A stretch of DNA of 64,000 nucleotides from contig JAHBUQ010000005.1 of assembly GCA_019637995.1 (NCBI GenBank), positions 62,001 through 126,000 on the forward strand, given 5' to 3'. Position numbers and translations under genes: made by a program. Positions 40,206-44,090 of the stretch are shown one piece after another. Under the pieces are notes generated by a model. That model saw only the letters and a program-made list of their open reading frames with translations. It was not told where the DNA came from and made no database searches. Position 1 is the stretch's first letter. The number at the start of each line of letters is the position of its first letter. The DNA is from Ignavibacteriota bacterium (GTDB taxonomy: Bacteria; Bacteroidota; Ignavibacteria; Kapaibacteriales; UBA2268).

Positions 40206-40213
40206 TAATTTTG
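40206..40213 (+). promoter_or_regulatory. Bacteroidota-type -10 box upstream of the riboswitch
   Basis: TAATTTTG at 40206-40213 immediately precedes the structured leader, so transcription would start about where the first stem begins. A clear TTG box at the right distance is missing. Confidence 0.45.
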
Positions 40214-40215
40214 CG

Positions 40216-40330
40216 TTGCTTCTCCGAGCAATATTGCCTAAAGTTGTTTCAAGGGTAATATTGCCGATGGGTTGAGCTGGAAACGGCTCCGCCTCCCGAA
40301 TGTGTATTGAATTGGAAAGGAGAAGGCAAT
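40216..40330 (+). promoter_or_regulatory. Candidate riboswitch aptamer (Moco-RNA-like) of the uptake operon
   Basis: A compact structured RNA. P1: 40216-40225 pairs with 40319-40329 (ttgcttctcc with ggagaaggcaa, one bulge). P2: 40228-40238 with 40253-40264. P3: GAGCTG (40274-40279), tetraloop GAAA, CGGCTC (40284-40289), enclosed by ggg (40269-40271) and ccc (40295-40297). Conserved-looking single strands ccgagc, gcctcccgaa and ggaaagg flank the stems. The GNRA loop and these motifs recall the molybdenum/tungsten cofactor (Moco) RNA motif; no cobalamin B12 box is present. The family is inferred from memory; a structured regulatory leader is well supported by pairing. Confidence 0.6.
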
Positions 40331-40400
40331 TAAGGAAAGATGTTAAAAAAACATCTCTATTACGTTATTGAATATAACGTTAATATGGCAATCTTTAAAG

Positions 40401-40435
40401 CCTTTTCCAAATTATATTTAGGAAAGGTTTTTTTT
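40401..40435 (+). terminator. Regulated intrinsic terminator (expression platform)
   Basis: ccttttcc (40401-40408) pairs with ggaaagg (40421-40427), followed by eight T directly before the ATG at 40436. The 5' strand begins within gcctt, complementary to aaggc of the P1 3' strand (40323-40327), so P1 and terminator can compete. Two other hairpins (gatgtt/aacatc near 40340-40355 and ttacgttat/ataacgtta near 40360-40382) lie between. Confidence 0.7.
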
Positions 40436-41047
40436 ATGAAATTTGTTGAAAATAATCTTAGCAAAACCGATATTTACCGCTCCGCTGTTTTTGGAGTGGT
40501 ATGGGGAATAATTGAGATTACAGCCGGCAATGCACTTCATTTGGCAAAAATACCTTTTCGGGGATTCTTACTATCATTTATTGCCGCTATAATTTTGGTT
40601 ACAGCAAAAGGAATAATTCAATACAAGGGGTCTTTAATTGTTATAGGCATCATCTGTGCAACGCTGAAAACAGCTACAACGGGCGCATTTTTAATCAATC
40701 CTATAGCGGCAATTTTATTAGAAAGTTTTGTTGCTGAACTTATTTTTTTGTTTTTAAGAATTACACCATTTAGCAGTATTGTTGCAGGGAGTGCTGTCCT
40801 GCTCTATACATTTCTGCACTCACTTGCAGCTCAACTGTTTTTCTTCGGCGTTGATATTATCACTTTCTATGACAAAACTTTTTCTACTCTTTTCAGTAAT
40901 ATTGAATCTCATGATTTCAGTATAGCTATTGTAGTATTGAGCATTTATGGTATTCTTCATATTTTTGTGGGCGGCATCGTCGGTTTGACAGGATACAGAT
41001 TTTCCAAACGCACTTTGAAGCATATCGAACAGTTGCAAAATGGATAA
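40436..41047 (+). CDS. Membrane protein resembling an ECF-type substrate-binding subunit
   Basis: A 203-residue integral membrane protein with about five to six hydrophobic helices. The ATG at 40436 is chosen because an earlier in-frame start would lie inside the leader RNA. Features such as SAVFGVVWGIIEITAGNALH and IPFRGFLLSF resemble small ECF transporter S components that bind vitamins or metals, but no named family is certain. It overlaps the next membrane gene by 8 bases and is first in a four-gene operon controlled by the riboswitch-like leader. Substrate unknown. Confidence 0.7.
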   Translation: MKFVENNLSKTDIYRSAVFGVVWGIIEITAGNALHLAKIPFRGFLLSFIAAIILVTAKGIIQYKGSLIVIGIICATLKTATTGAFLINPIAAILLESFVAELIFLFLRITPFSSIVAGSAVLLYTFLHSLAAQLFFFGVDIITFYDKTFSTLFSNIESHDFSIAIVVLSIYGILHIFVGGIVGLTGYRFSKRTLKHIEQLQNG

Positions 41048-41630
41048 ATTAGCCGCAAAATATCGAATAATCAATCAAATGTACAAAAAGGCGTTTATTA
41101 TTCCGCTAATATTGATTGTTTGTACTTTTATTCTGCCATTCAATTATAATCTTTTTTTATTCAGCTTCTATATAATTTTCCTTACAATATCAAGTCCTTT
41201 TGCTTTCAAACGTTTAAACAGCTATTTTTTGTGGGTATTTCTATTATTGACAATAGTTTTTTATCCTATGACTGAGTCTGAAAATAGTTTGAAAATATTT
41301 GGTGCAATTAATTATAATCTTGATTTGATGAAATCAAGTATAAGTATGGTAATGCGGGCAATTATGATTTTGACAGCACTATCATTATTGAATAATGCCA
41401 ATCGAAATAACGATATAAATATTCTATGGAGAAAAGTTGGTATTGATAATTACGAAGAGATTAAAACTGAAGTTGACGCTCTTGTACCAGTCATAAAAGG
41501 TCGGGCAAAAAATGTTTATAAGGAATTAAAATCAGGAAAAAAAGAAAGCTTTATTGACTTGATTTCAAGGAATTTAGCTGAACTATTAATTAATCCTAAT
41601 CAAAAATCCAAGGAGCAAGGTAATGACTAA
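41040..41630 (+). CDS. Membrane protein with cytoplasmic tail, possible ECF T-like subunit
   Basis: A 196-residue protein: four or so hydrophobic helices in the first 125 residues (FIIPLILIVCTFILPFNYNL; YFLWVFLLLTIVFYP; AIMILTALSLLNN), then a charged helical tail of about 70 residues. The layout of helices followed by coupling helices recalls ECF or CbiQ-type T subunits, though shorter than usual. It overlaps both the preceding gene and the TonB receptor gene (8 bases each), so its stoichiometry is probably linked to theirs. Identification is tentative. Confidence 0.6.
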   Translation: MDKLAAKYRIINQMYKKAFIIPLILIVCTFILPFNYNLFLFSFYIIFLTISSPFAFKRLNSYFLWVFLLLTIVFYPMTESENSLKIFGAINYNLDLMKSSISMVMRAIMILTALSLLNNANRNNDINILWRKVGIDNYEEIKTEVDALVPVIKGRAKNVYKELKSGKKESFIDLISRNLAELLINPNQKSKEQGND

Positions 41631-43566
41631 AACTCTACTCGCTTTAATTATAATGCTTTTTTGCTTAAATTTAAATACTGCTTTTTCAAAAGACAGCGTA
41701 AAAGTTTTTTACACAGGCGAGCTTGTTGTTTTGCCAGCTGACGAGCCGCTGAATCTTACAAGCCGCATAAGTGAAATATCAATCAGTGAAATTACTGCTG
41801 ATAGATTTCTGACAGTTGACAATGTTCTGCAATTTTCGCAAGGTATAATTTTCCAGAAGAATACCCGAAATGAAGCTTTTATACGACTTAGGGGCTATGA
41901 CCAGAGGCAGATTGGTATTTTTTTCGATGGTGTTCCAATCAGCAGTCCTTATGATGGGGCTTTGGATTTGAGCATTTTCTCTCTAAGTAATGTTTCTAAA
42001 ATCAATATTTCCCGAAATATGCCTTCTATGTATTATGGCTCTAACAGCATTGGCGGAACGATTAACATTGTAACTGATAATATATATAAATCAAATTCGG
42101 TTTATGGAAATGTTCAGGTTGGTGAAATTAGCGATTCTTATCAATTGGGATTTGATTATAATTTATCGAAATTTTCATTTCAGGTAAATGCAAATTATAT
42201 ATCCAATAATAATTTCCGTTGCGCTGATCCTGATGATATGTTCTCAACACAAGTTGTGCCAAATAGTAAAAGTAATATGCTGAATACCTACGCAAAAGTA
42301 GGATTTGTCGCATCTGATAATTCTATTTTTTCACTTTCATATCTTTTGGGCAGGGCTGATAAGCAAATTCCTGTAAATCAGCTTACTACCAGACCACGCT
42401 ACTGGCAGATGCCTGAAATTAACCGTGATATTGTGAATTTCACTCATTATTATAAGCTAAGTGAGGCATTCACTGTACGTGGAAATGTTTATTATGAAAA
42501 GAGTTATAATCTGTTAAAATCTTTTGATGACAGTACATTTTCCTCGCAGAATGCACGCAGTTCGTTTAGCTCAATTTATGATGACTATAAATTCGGCGGA
42601 AATTTAATTACTGAAATCAATACAGGACTTGCAGATTTGACAAAATTATCAATAAATTATCAGCTTGATAATCACAGGGCGCAGGCAAATACCGGACTGG
42701 ACTGGACAGAATACGAAACAAGTATGATGACACTCGCAGCAGAGCAGAATTTCAGTTATGATAAATTCACTGCACTTGCCGGTTTGAGCTATGATATGCT
42801 CGTGCCTCATAATGCAAATGGTAATGAATTACGTGAAAATGCAAATAACCTAAACTATCACTTGGGGACATCATACCGCTTTGATGAAATCAACATTTTT
42901 GCTAATATTTCGATGAAAAGCCGCTTCCCGACTCAAAAAGAATTCTACTCCGAAATTTCGGGTACAGCTCTTCAAAATCCGAACTTAAAAGCCGAAACAG
43001 GGCAGAATGTCGAGTTGGGATTTACATATTATCCCGAGAAGATTCAGGATATATCATTTTCCGGAAGTATTTATCATAATAATGTTTCCAACTTAATCGA
43101 AGTAGTTTTTCTACCAGATAATTTCCGCCAATTCCAGAATTTTGGAAAAGCAGTATTCACTGGTGCAGAAATTAAAACTGATTACCGTAAAGAAAATTAT
43201 TTTTTATCTCTCGGATATAGCTATTTGAGTGCTGAAAATCTAAGTGATAATGCCGAAGCCAAAACTATGGTAAACAGACCAATGCACACTTTAATATTTT
43301 CCGGCTCTGTAAGTATATTTAAATATTACAACATATATCTTGATGGACTGTATTATCTGGAGCAATATACAAATAATCCTGATACACGTAAAATCGAAAA
43401 GCTAGATGATTATATTCTGCTTAATCTCTCGCTTGACAGAAATTTCAAATACCATTCATTTTATTTTGTTTTTAATAATTTACTTAATCAGTTTTACTAT
43501 ACAGAGTGGGGGCTTCCGCAACAGGGCTTCAGCTTTCAGGCAGGTGTTCGTCTAAACGTAAGATGA
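41623..43566 (+). CDS. TonB-dependent outer-membrane receptor
   Basis: A 647-residue receptor with signal peptide (LLALIIMLFCLNLNTAFS), a TonB-box-like ELVVLPA (33-39), a plug domain to about 155 (FIRLRGYDQRQIGIFFDGVP; YYGSNSIGGTINIV) and a 22-strand-type barrel ending in FSFQAGVRLNVR. It imports an unknown ligand across the outer membrane using TonB energy. Being under a structured leader with membrane subunits and an NTPase suggests a cofactor, metal chelate or vitamin rather than a sugar. Size is like BtuB and metallophore receptors. It shares ATGA with the following gene. Confidence 0.9.
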   Translation: MTKTLLALIIMLFCLNLNTAFSKDSVKVFYTGELVVLPADEPLNLTSRISEISISEITADRFLTVDNVLQFSQGIIFQKNTRNEAFIRLRGYDQRQIGIFFDGVPISSPYDGALDLSIFSLSNVSKINISRNMPSMYYGSNSIGGTINIVTDNIYKSNSVYGNVQVGEISDSYQLGFDYNLSKFSFQVNANYISNNNFRCADPDDMFSTQVVPNSKSNMLNTYAKVGFVASDNSIFSLSYLLGRADKQIPVNQLTTRPRYWQMPEINRDIVNFTHYYKLSEAFTVRGNVYYEKSYNLLKSFDDSTFSSQNARSSFSSIYDDYKFGGNLITEINTGLADLTKLSINYQLDNHRAQANTGLDWTEYETSMMTLAAEQNFSYDKFTALAGLSYDMLVPHNANGNELRENANNLNYHLGTSYRFDEINIFANISMKSRFPTQKEFYSEISGTALQNPNLKAETGQNVELGFTYYPEKIQDISFSGSIYHNNVSNLIEVVFLPDNFRQFQNFGKAVFTGAEIKTDYRKENYFLSLGYSYLSAENLSDNAEAKTMVNRPMHTLIFSGSVSIFKYYNIYLDGLYYLEQYTNNPDTRKIEKLDDYILLNLSLDRNFKYHSFYFVFNNLLNQFYYTEWGLPQQGFSFQAGVRLNVR

Positions 43567-44090
43567 GAATAATAATCATAACAGGTAATAAATCAGCCGG
43601 CAAGACTACGCTTGTCGGCTCTTTGATTTCGCGTGCAGAGCAATCGAATTTGAATTTCGATGGAATAATATCACGAGCAGTTTTTGATTTCAAAGGGGAG
43701 AAAACGGGCTTTGAATCTGTCAGATTATCGGATAAAAAAACTGAATTACTTTGTCATAGCGGACTTGTTGCTAAAACTTCCACATTCAAATATGGTTTCA
43801 GTGCTCAGGCGTTTTCATTAGGCGAGTCATTTACAGGTGATAATTTCCCTGAGACATTTTTTCTTGATGAAGTCGGAATTCTTGAAGCAGACAATCAGGG
43901 CTGGTCTGAATTACTAAGAAGATTACTGAAATCAAATGTAAAGGTTCTTGTTCTGAGTTTGAGGTTAAGTGTACTGGATAAAATAATTGAATTATATCAA
44001 TTTCATAATTCAATAGTTTATAAAATTGATTCTGAAAATGAAATTGCAAAGCTGACTGATGAAATATCAGCTCAAATTTCTATTGATTAG
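43563..44090 (+). CDS. THEP1-like P-loop NTPase
   Basis: A 175-residue P-loop NTPase starting at the ATG that overlaps the receptor stop (ATGA). Walker A is GNKSAGKT near the N-terminus, and Walker B is FFLDEVGILE, followed by ELLRRLLKSNVKVLVLSLRL. The GIISRAVFDFKGEKTGFESV segment matches the THEP1/NTPase_1 family; related DUF2478 proteins occur beside molybdate transporters. It may power or regulate the uptake system. It is too short for an ABC ATPase and lacks the ABC signature motif. Last gene of the operon. Confidence 0.75.
   Translation: MRIIIITGNKSAGKTTLVGSLISRAEQSNLNFDGIISRAVFDFKGEKTGFESVRLSDKKTELLCHSGLVAKTSTFKYGFSAQAFSLGESFTGDNFPETFFLDEVGILEADNQGWSELLRRLLKSNVKVLVLSLRLSVLDKIIELYQFHNSIVYKIDSENEIAKLTDEISAQISID

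Follow-up and report, generated by a model that had tools for sequence, protein, structure and literature searches.

We report a four-gene operon, found in a window of 64,000 nucleotides of Ignavibacteriota bacterium DNA, that we read as importing the molybdenum (or tungsten) cofactor, with Mo-molybdopterin as its likeliest form, into a bacterium unable to make it. We put the probability of this reading at about 70%. It draws on the riboswitch and terminator in front of the operon, the fold and families of its products, the natural fusions of three of them, and a genome with a molybdoenzyme and MobA that lacks moaA, moaC and moeA.

Organisation of the operon

The ORF reading of the window gives four overlapping ORFs on the + strand at 40436-44090, here termed genes A to D (Table 1). 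Consecutive genes overlap by 8, 8 and 4 bases, in agreement with the preliminary description. We placed the start of gene A at 40436 because of its homologues and of the position of the terminator. A second in-frame ATG is seen upstream, at 40340.

Table 1. Features of the operon and its leader, in positions of the window.
Feature	Position	Strand	Description	Method
Moco/Tuco riboswitch aptamer	40210..40338	+	RF01055, without P3 stem	cmscan
P1 3' strand	40319..40327	+	GGAGAAGGC, can pair with 40400-40408 GCCUUUUCC (antiterminator)	folding
Intrinsic terminator	40398..40435	+	hairpin and U run, overlaps gene A Shine-Dalgarno	folding
Gene A	40436..41047	+	203 aa, ECF S-component-like integral membrane protein	
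Gene B	41040..41630	+	small membrane protein, weakly EcfT/CbiQ-like	
Gene C	41623..43566	+	647 aa, TonB-dependent outer-membrane receptor	
Gene D	43563..44090	+	THEP1-family (PF03266) P-loop NTPase	

A Moco riboswitch and a predicted OFF switch

The leader, first described only as structured, is a genuine Moco riboswitch aptamer. It matches RF01055 over the full model (1-135) with 62.0 bits (gathering 36, E 1.8e-12), and no other match to this family is present in the 3.92 Mb genome. The P3 stem is gapped in the alignment, meaning that the Moco-type P3 is absent. RNAs lacking P3 have been tied to Tuco (Regulski 2008). The RF01055 family is accepted to include such P3-less RNAs, and the membership of the window's aptamer stands. 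We considered whether the missing P3 points to tungsten and discarded this: the other Kapabacteria aptamers shown also lack P3, including those of moa operons from the same family, which leaves its absence without diagnostic value here.

Next, folding places an intrinsic terminator directly before gene A (-10.7 kcal/mol, z -3.07), and the region 40300-40420 folds with -29.9 kcal/mol (z -4.73). A simple consensus terminator scan omits this hairpin, because the loop limit of the scan excludes it, while folding and a looser search recover it. Pairing of GGAGAAGGC with GCCUUUUCC would exclude aptamer P1 and terminator alike, the antiterminator duplex having -16.2 kcal/mol against -11.4 kcal/mol for the terminator stem. 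An intrinsic terminator precedes gene A in 13/13 riboswitch-A loci, is kept in their alignment, and is matched by none of the shuffles. Its position behind the riboswitch implies an OFF switch, and a response to the ligand is predicted from these sequences. When Moco is plentiful, the aptamer would fold, the antiterminator would not form, and transcription would stop before gene A, turning uptake off.

The four gene products

Genes A and B had been proposed as two ECF-like membrane proteins. The proposal holds for A; for B the support is weak. The AlphaFold model of gene A (mean pLDDT 92) shows the six-helix fold of an ECF S-component. Its closest structure is YkoE (Z 15.8, 3.5 A over 171 residues), followed in the structure comparison by RibU, FolT, BioY, PanT and ThiT, and the majority of the best 17 structure chains are S-components. 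In terms of sequence, no Pfam family is above cut-off for the window's own A or B, a single-sequence scan of the genome contigs with gene A returned nothing, and the gene A profile (A4) has no match among PDB chains. Relatives of gene A match PF09605 Trep_Strep (8.6e-8) and PF09819 ABC_cobalt (5e-4). Judged from the model, the assignment of gene A as S-component-like is well supported.

Gene B has a C-terminal helical part and an invariant Arg106. CbiQ comes first among its family matches (5/30 members, best E 0.038). EcfT appears at E 1.6 with profile A3, is absent with profile A6, and was not returned for the B half when an A-B fusion was searched with Foldseek. These matches suggest a weak kinship to EcfT/CbiQ.

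Gene C, taken from the start for a TonB receptor, has the Plug (PF07715, 54.6 bits, 1.8e-14) and beta-barrel (PF00593, 106.3 bits, 4.5e-30) domains, both above cut-off. Its N-terminus is signal-peptide-like and a TonB-box-like ELVVLPA is present. Against the BtuB model it reaches 55 bits, with a cut-off of 600.

Lastly, gene D matches PF03266 NTPase_1/THEP1 with 61.6 bits (cut-off 23.9, 1.1e-16), and its Walker A (GxxxxGK), Walker B (DE) and GxLE...G motifs are kept in 18-19 of 19 relatives. It matches no ABC family, in line with its first description as a THEP1-like NTPase and not an ABC ATPase. Within the operon, the PF03266 protein is the sole NTPase. In the literature, we found no earlier case of an ECF-like importer powered by a THEP1-type NTPase, a point against the import reading, as is the weak kinship of B to EcfT.

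Recurrence and gene neighbourhood

The riboswitch-A-B cluster is present in 13 genomes checked, from Candidatus Kapabacteria and six other Bacteroidota. Seven are of the window's own family, with the full A-B-C-D in five, and six come from other families of the phylum. RF01055 lies upstream of A-B in 13/13 loci examined, and the recurrence of this arrangement is far beyond chance. Receptor C is kept in 11/13 riboswitch loci, being absent in G047 and G052. In one Kapabacteria family (f1), loci with this riboswitch have either moa genes or A-B behind it, never both.

Homologous clusters usually adjoin molybdoenzyme genes, with molybdopterin oxidoreductases, MobA and NarJ/TorD-type chaperones as neighbours, rather than standing consistently beside cobalamin or siderophore genes, the context that would have spoken against the preliminary description. 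It had suggested that, in case the leader was Moco-like, the operon could bring Mo, W or a cofactor across the outer membrane, and both the riboswitch and these neighbours now favour this.

Furthermore, natural fusions were found in three forms, A-B, A-B-D and D-A-B, and the A-B-D fusions carry the same NTPase, which argues that A, B and D act as one machine. Such a machine might instead be a membrane-bound complex for cofactor handling or enzyme maturation, with C taking up something else. The adjoining molybdoenzyme genes would suit it, as would the faint likeness of D to MobB (PF03205, 18.3 bits, under the 26.6 cut-off) and the fused A-B loci, which have neither receptor C nor riboswitch. 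We give this explanation the lowest odds and hold it to be highly improbable: the fold of A is that of substrate-binding S-components, C is cotranscribed by overlap and kept in most riboswitch loci, and supply fits the link with missing biosynthesis better than maturation does.

Missing cofactor biosynthesis

The window's genome encodes a full-length Psr-like molybdoenzyme and, away from the operon, has MobA beside a NarJ/TorD-type chaperone. MobA is next to D in several relatives, and present in 12/12 carrier genomes tested. In the same genome, which is 98.5% complete, MoaA, MoaC and MoeA are absent. MoaA was not found in nine genomes (G000, G007, G010, G034, G298, G147, G214, G305, G425), and MoaC was found neither in these nine nor in G047 and G048, in a check that comprised MoaA and MoaC. 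MoeA/MogA was not found in G000 and most others, where PF00994 matches are CinA-sized only. Of the 13 genomes with the cluster, almost all are thus without MoaA/MoaC and most without MoeA. An assembly gap is possible for the window's genome alone; the same pattern is seen in many genomes, including the single-contig G214. Some carriers retain biosynthesis, these being G236, G052 and several whose A and B are fused. This retention is a counterpoint to cofactor import, as are the two riboswitch-A-B loci that have no receptor C and the fused A-B loci, where the riboswitch is missing as well.

We examined the association in a set of 395 Bacteroidota genomes, limiting the test to those at least 90% complete and with a molybdoenzyme (PF01568, E<=1e-10). 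Gene A is present in 12/13 MoaA-less and 11/145 MoaA-positive genomes (Fisher p=5e-11, uncorrected for phylogeny), a phylum-wide association that is inflated by shared ancestry. Within families f12 and f17 the contrast is small, and outside them gene A is found in 3/4 MoaA-less against 3/134 MoaA-positive genomes. PF06463 matches with E between 1e-4 and 1e-12 (G113, G132, G143, G458) may not be true MoaA; we scored them as MoaA-positive, and the association is therefore weakened, not helped. Gene A matches in G454 and G380 are marginal, and one in G050 (E 5e-4) was rejected as probably spurious.

The cofactor is favoured over bare Mo or W as substrate because most carriers lack the biosynthesis genes that make the metal useful. 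Import of molybdate or tungstate, either as free ions or as a metallophore chelate, would agree with the Moco riboswitches known upstream of molybdate transporters (PMC2408646) and with the frequent entry of metal chelates via TonB receptors. It would also agree with the lack of ModB (TIGR02141) above cut-off in the window's genome (best 43.7 bits vs 182.6), in a search that covered ModB. We consider metal import very unlikely, as bare metal cannot become cofactor in carriers that are mostly without MoaA and MoaC. Most MoaA-positive relatives tested are also without ModB above cut-off, which makes this search undiscriminating, yet they have no gene A. In addition, a PF02417 protein fills the oxyanion-transporter position in most of the Kapabacteria (f1) moa operons under the riboswitch.

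Unlikely, though less so, is the import of a metal-free precursor (molybdopterin or cPMP) that would be completed in the cell, with Mo or W inserted there. G147 and G425 point in this direction, having MoeA next to MobA, yet no MoaA or MoaC. Against it, in most carriers, including the window's genome, the CinA-sized PF00994 protein stands alone, with none of the MoeA/MogA type, and no ModB is above cut-off in the auxotrophs tested.

Proposed mechanism and known systems

We infer that the finished cofactor is the substrate and that it moves inward. Receptor C would carry it across the outer membrane with TonB energy. At the inner membrane, the S-component-like A would bind the cofactor and move it inward with B, with NTPase D driving import in place of the usual ABC ATPases. 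Cytoplasmic MobA would then add GMP, giving the dinucleotide cofactor for insertion into the Psr-like molybdoenzyme.

The thiamin system YkoEDC (Group I ECF, THI-box riboswitch) offers a parallel: gene A has a YkoE-like S-component fold, dedicated S and T-like subunits are encoded together, and their operon is controlled by a riboswitch for the cognate cofactor. In contrast, YkoD is a double ABC ATPase, whereas the window's operon has a PF03266 NTPase, an only weakly T-like B and an outer-membrane receptor. Cobalamin uptake (BtuB with BtuCDF or ECF, B12 riboswitches), an example of a complex metal cofactor imported in auxotrophs (PMC5317091), likewise joins a cofactor riboswitch, a TonB receptor and an inner-membrane importer. 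Here, however, the riboswitch is Moco-type, C is only distantly BtuB-like, and the operon has neither ABC ATPase nor periplasmic binding protein.

The Moco-riboswitch regulon (moa operon, modABC) shares the riboswitch class and the OFF-type terminator platform. Earlier targets of this riboswitch were molybdate transporters, Moco synthesis and Moco-using enzymes (PMC2408646), and Moco uptake is not among the categories in a survey of RNA regulons (PMC3766115). In the dietary Moco uptake of C. elegans, mature Moco is also acquired from outside, but this is an animal, with the mechanism unknown and no bacterial transporter described (PMC9793310). Two points weigh against the import reading: free Moco is highly unstable and, as of 2022, C. 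elegans was the only case in which its uptake had been observed (PMC9793310). No bacterial Moco or molybdopterin uptake system was found in the full-text literature, a scope that excludes most subscription papers.

We see an even chance that this is the first bacterial importer dedicated to finished Moco and that it founds a new class of S-component transporters, in which a THEP1-type NTPase takes the place of ABC ATPases, sustaining auxotrophs on the cofactor of their neighbours. Among ~5900 organisms surveyed, some 300 prokaryotes have molybdoenzymes and no complete Moco pathway; the passages of that survey considered here offer unknown biosynthesis or Mo-independent enzymes as explanations, without uptake among them, and call for urgent work (PMC6147048). 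For Bacteroidota, Moco import is a concrete, testable alternative, and would explain "orphan molybdoprotein" genomes. If true, a non-ABC energiser of an S-component importer becomes testable, and the operon would supply the first candidate proteins for how Moco crosses membranes, a question raised in PMC9793310. Moco would then be an exchangeable, vitamin-like good among microbes.

The Moco riboswitch and its terminator

The four genes, A to D, and their overlaps are as in the preliminary description, and the structured leader reported there proves to be more, namely the aptamer of a molybdenum cofactor (Moco) riboswitch (RF01055). The match spans the whole model length with 62 bits, and the copy upstream of gene A is the only one in the 3.92 Mb genome. 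The predicted RNA pairing makes the aptamer and an antiterminator mutually exclusive. A terminator is present at the equivalent site in 13/13 riboswitch-A loci, lines up across loci in the alignment, is matched by 0 shuffles (60 per locus), and is also found in 6/7 moa operons tested. We infer that the switch is OFF upon cofactor binding, a logic that would fit a supply system.

Features of the leader preceding gene A (window coordinates)
Feature	Position	Strand	Remark
Moco aptamer	40210-40338		
Aptamer P1 3' strand, GGAGAAGGC	40319-40327	+	alternative pairing partner of terminator 5' arm
Intrinsic terminator	40398-40435	+	between aptamer and gene A; overlaps A's ribosome-binding site
Terminator 5' arm, GCCUUUUCC	40400-40408	+	can pair with GGAGAAGGC instead (antiterminator)

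The P3 stem, whose loss in Moco aptamers was tied to the tungsten cofactor in 2008, is absent from the window aptamer. Nearly all Kapabacteria Moco aptamers shown (loci L002-L011 and the window) lack it whatever gene they control, those of moa operons included, which weakens the case for reading P3 loss as a sign of tungsten in this lineage.

Conservation and gene neighbourhoods

This genome and Candidatus Kapabacteria are members of one family, and gene A is also found in the relatives' records CALHRB, CALKJQ, CALHGZ, CALBDO and CP058732. A clear A is present in 7/100 relatives, with RF01055 directly upstream in 7/7, and a profile search found A in 39/395 genomes of the phylum. In the six strongest carriers outside the family, RF01055 precedes A-B-C in 6/6 and D is present in 3/6. 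Neighbours of A loci include molybdopterin oxidoreductases, Fe-S and NrfD subunits, nitrate-reductase-delta/TorD-type chaperones and MobA.

The four proteins

No Pfam family is assigned to A. Its AlphaFold model is confident (mean pLDDT 92, pTM 0.88), with the ECF S-component YkoE as top solved-structure match (Z 15.8, 3.5 A over 171 residues); most of the next-ranked matches are S-components as well (RibU, FolT, BioY, PanT, ThiT, NikM). Independently of this comparison, relatives of A match Trep_Strep (8.6e-8) and ABC_cobalt (5e-4, the YkoE family), two families that include S-components. B, a small membrane protein, contains a single invariant arginine. It seems weakly T-like, short of a T component, because its top family match is CbiQ at E 0.038 and the EcfT match depends on the profile (E 1.6 with one, none with another).

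C is a TonB-dependent receptor scoring far under the cut-offs of the named receptors for heme, B12 and siderophores. D belongs to the THEP1 family of NTPases, and its Walker A, Walker B and DExGxLE motifs are kept in 18-19/19 relatives. A, B and D act jointly, since natural fusions exist in other genomes, of A-B (~360 aa) and of all three in either order. The fused A-B loci have no receptor, and no riboswitch where tested; they frequently adjoin MobA, D or a molybdoenzyme.

A second A paralogue occurs without B (L079 3582-4274, L080 17888-18469, L081 6852-7436, L083 5762-6352, L087, L088). These loci contain a Rieske protein, cytochrome b, multihaem cytochrome, sensor kinase and sigma-54 regulator, with a molybdoenzyme downstream.

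Loss of Moco synthesis in carriers

Judging from profile searches of the assemblies, Moco synthesis has usually been lost in A carriers. MoaA and MoaC are both absent from this genome, G007, G010, G034, G298, G147, G214 (single-contig), G305 and G425, and MoaC also from G047 and G048; G236 has both and G052 has MoaC. Most carriers lack MoeA/MogA, since their sole PF00994 protein is CinA-sized, with MoeA kept in G147 and G425. MobA is kept in 12/12 carriers tested. In this genome, which has one full-length Psr-like molybdoenzyme, MobA adjoins a carboxymuconolactone-decarboxylase-like (CMD) protein and a NarJ/TorD-type chaperone. A few carriers retain the complete pathway, so in these uptake may be facultative.

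When genomes encoding a molybdoenzyme (PF01568, E<=1e-10) are restricted to those of 90% completeness or more, A is present in 12/13 without MoaA versus 11/145 with it (p=5e-11, not corrected for phylogeny). Much of this contrast comes from two families, f12 and f17, where A is common; outside them the counts are 3/4 versus 3/134 (p=2e-4, likewise uncorrected).

In the proposed mechanism, the cofactor would cross the outer membrane via C and the inner membrane via A-B-D, D either supplying the power stroke or handing the cofactor over to MobA, which would then convert Mo-molybdopterin (Mo-MPT) to the dinucleotide form. DMSO-reductase-family enzymes use this dinucleotide form. Since carriers usually lack MoeA but keep MobA, the most economical substrate would be Mo-MPT. 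The main alternative, import of MPT, especially fits G147 and G425, where a partial pathway for imported metal-free pterin is possible. These two genomes keep CMD-MoeA-MobA (L117 7619-9833 and L118 7934-10056) and lack MoaA and MoaC.

Moco riboswitches have been described upstream of genes for molybdate transport, for Moco synthesis and for enzymes that use Moco (PMC2408646). Prokaryotes have three known Mo/W ABC importers (PMC6147048); the same survey reported several hundred "orphan molybdoprotein" organisms and suggested as explanations either new biosynthesis or enzymes that work without Mo. Searches of an open-access literature collection turned up no bacterial Moco importer; as of 2022, Moco uptake had been observed only in C. 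elegans (PMC9793310).

Synthesis or proposed uptake within the family

A CMD/AhpD-like protein of ~105 aa recurs in Moco loci (L115 8698-9012, C1 of this genome, PF02627; L032, L036, L037, L041, L057-L069). Its gene is first in riboswitch-run moa operons; in this genome it adjoins MobA, and in other loci it is found next to fused A-B genes. A short Chromate_transp (PF02417) gene lies between the CMD gene and moaA (L036 9983-10507; likewise L032, L122, L124), its product being a candidate molybdate/tungstate oxyanion transporter of Kapabacteria moa operons.

Among the 14 riboswitch genomes of this family, the riboswitch precedes moa genes in 7, A-B in 7 and both in 0. The PF02417 transporter is upstream of moaA in most of the family's moa operons (identified in L036, elsewhere as profile matches), which suggests that molybdate uptake goes with the synthesis version rather than with A-B-C-D.
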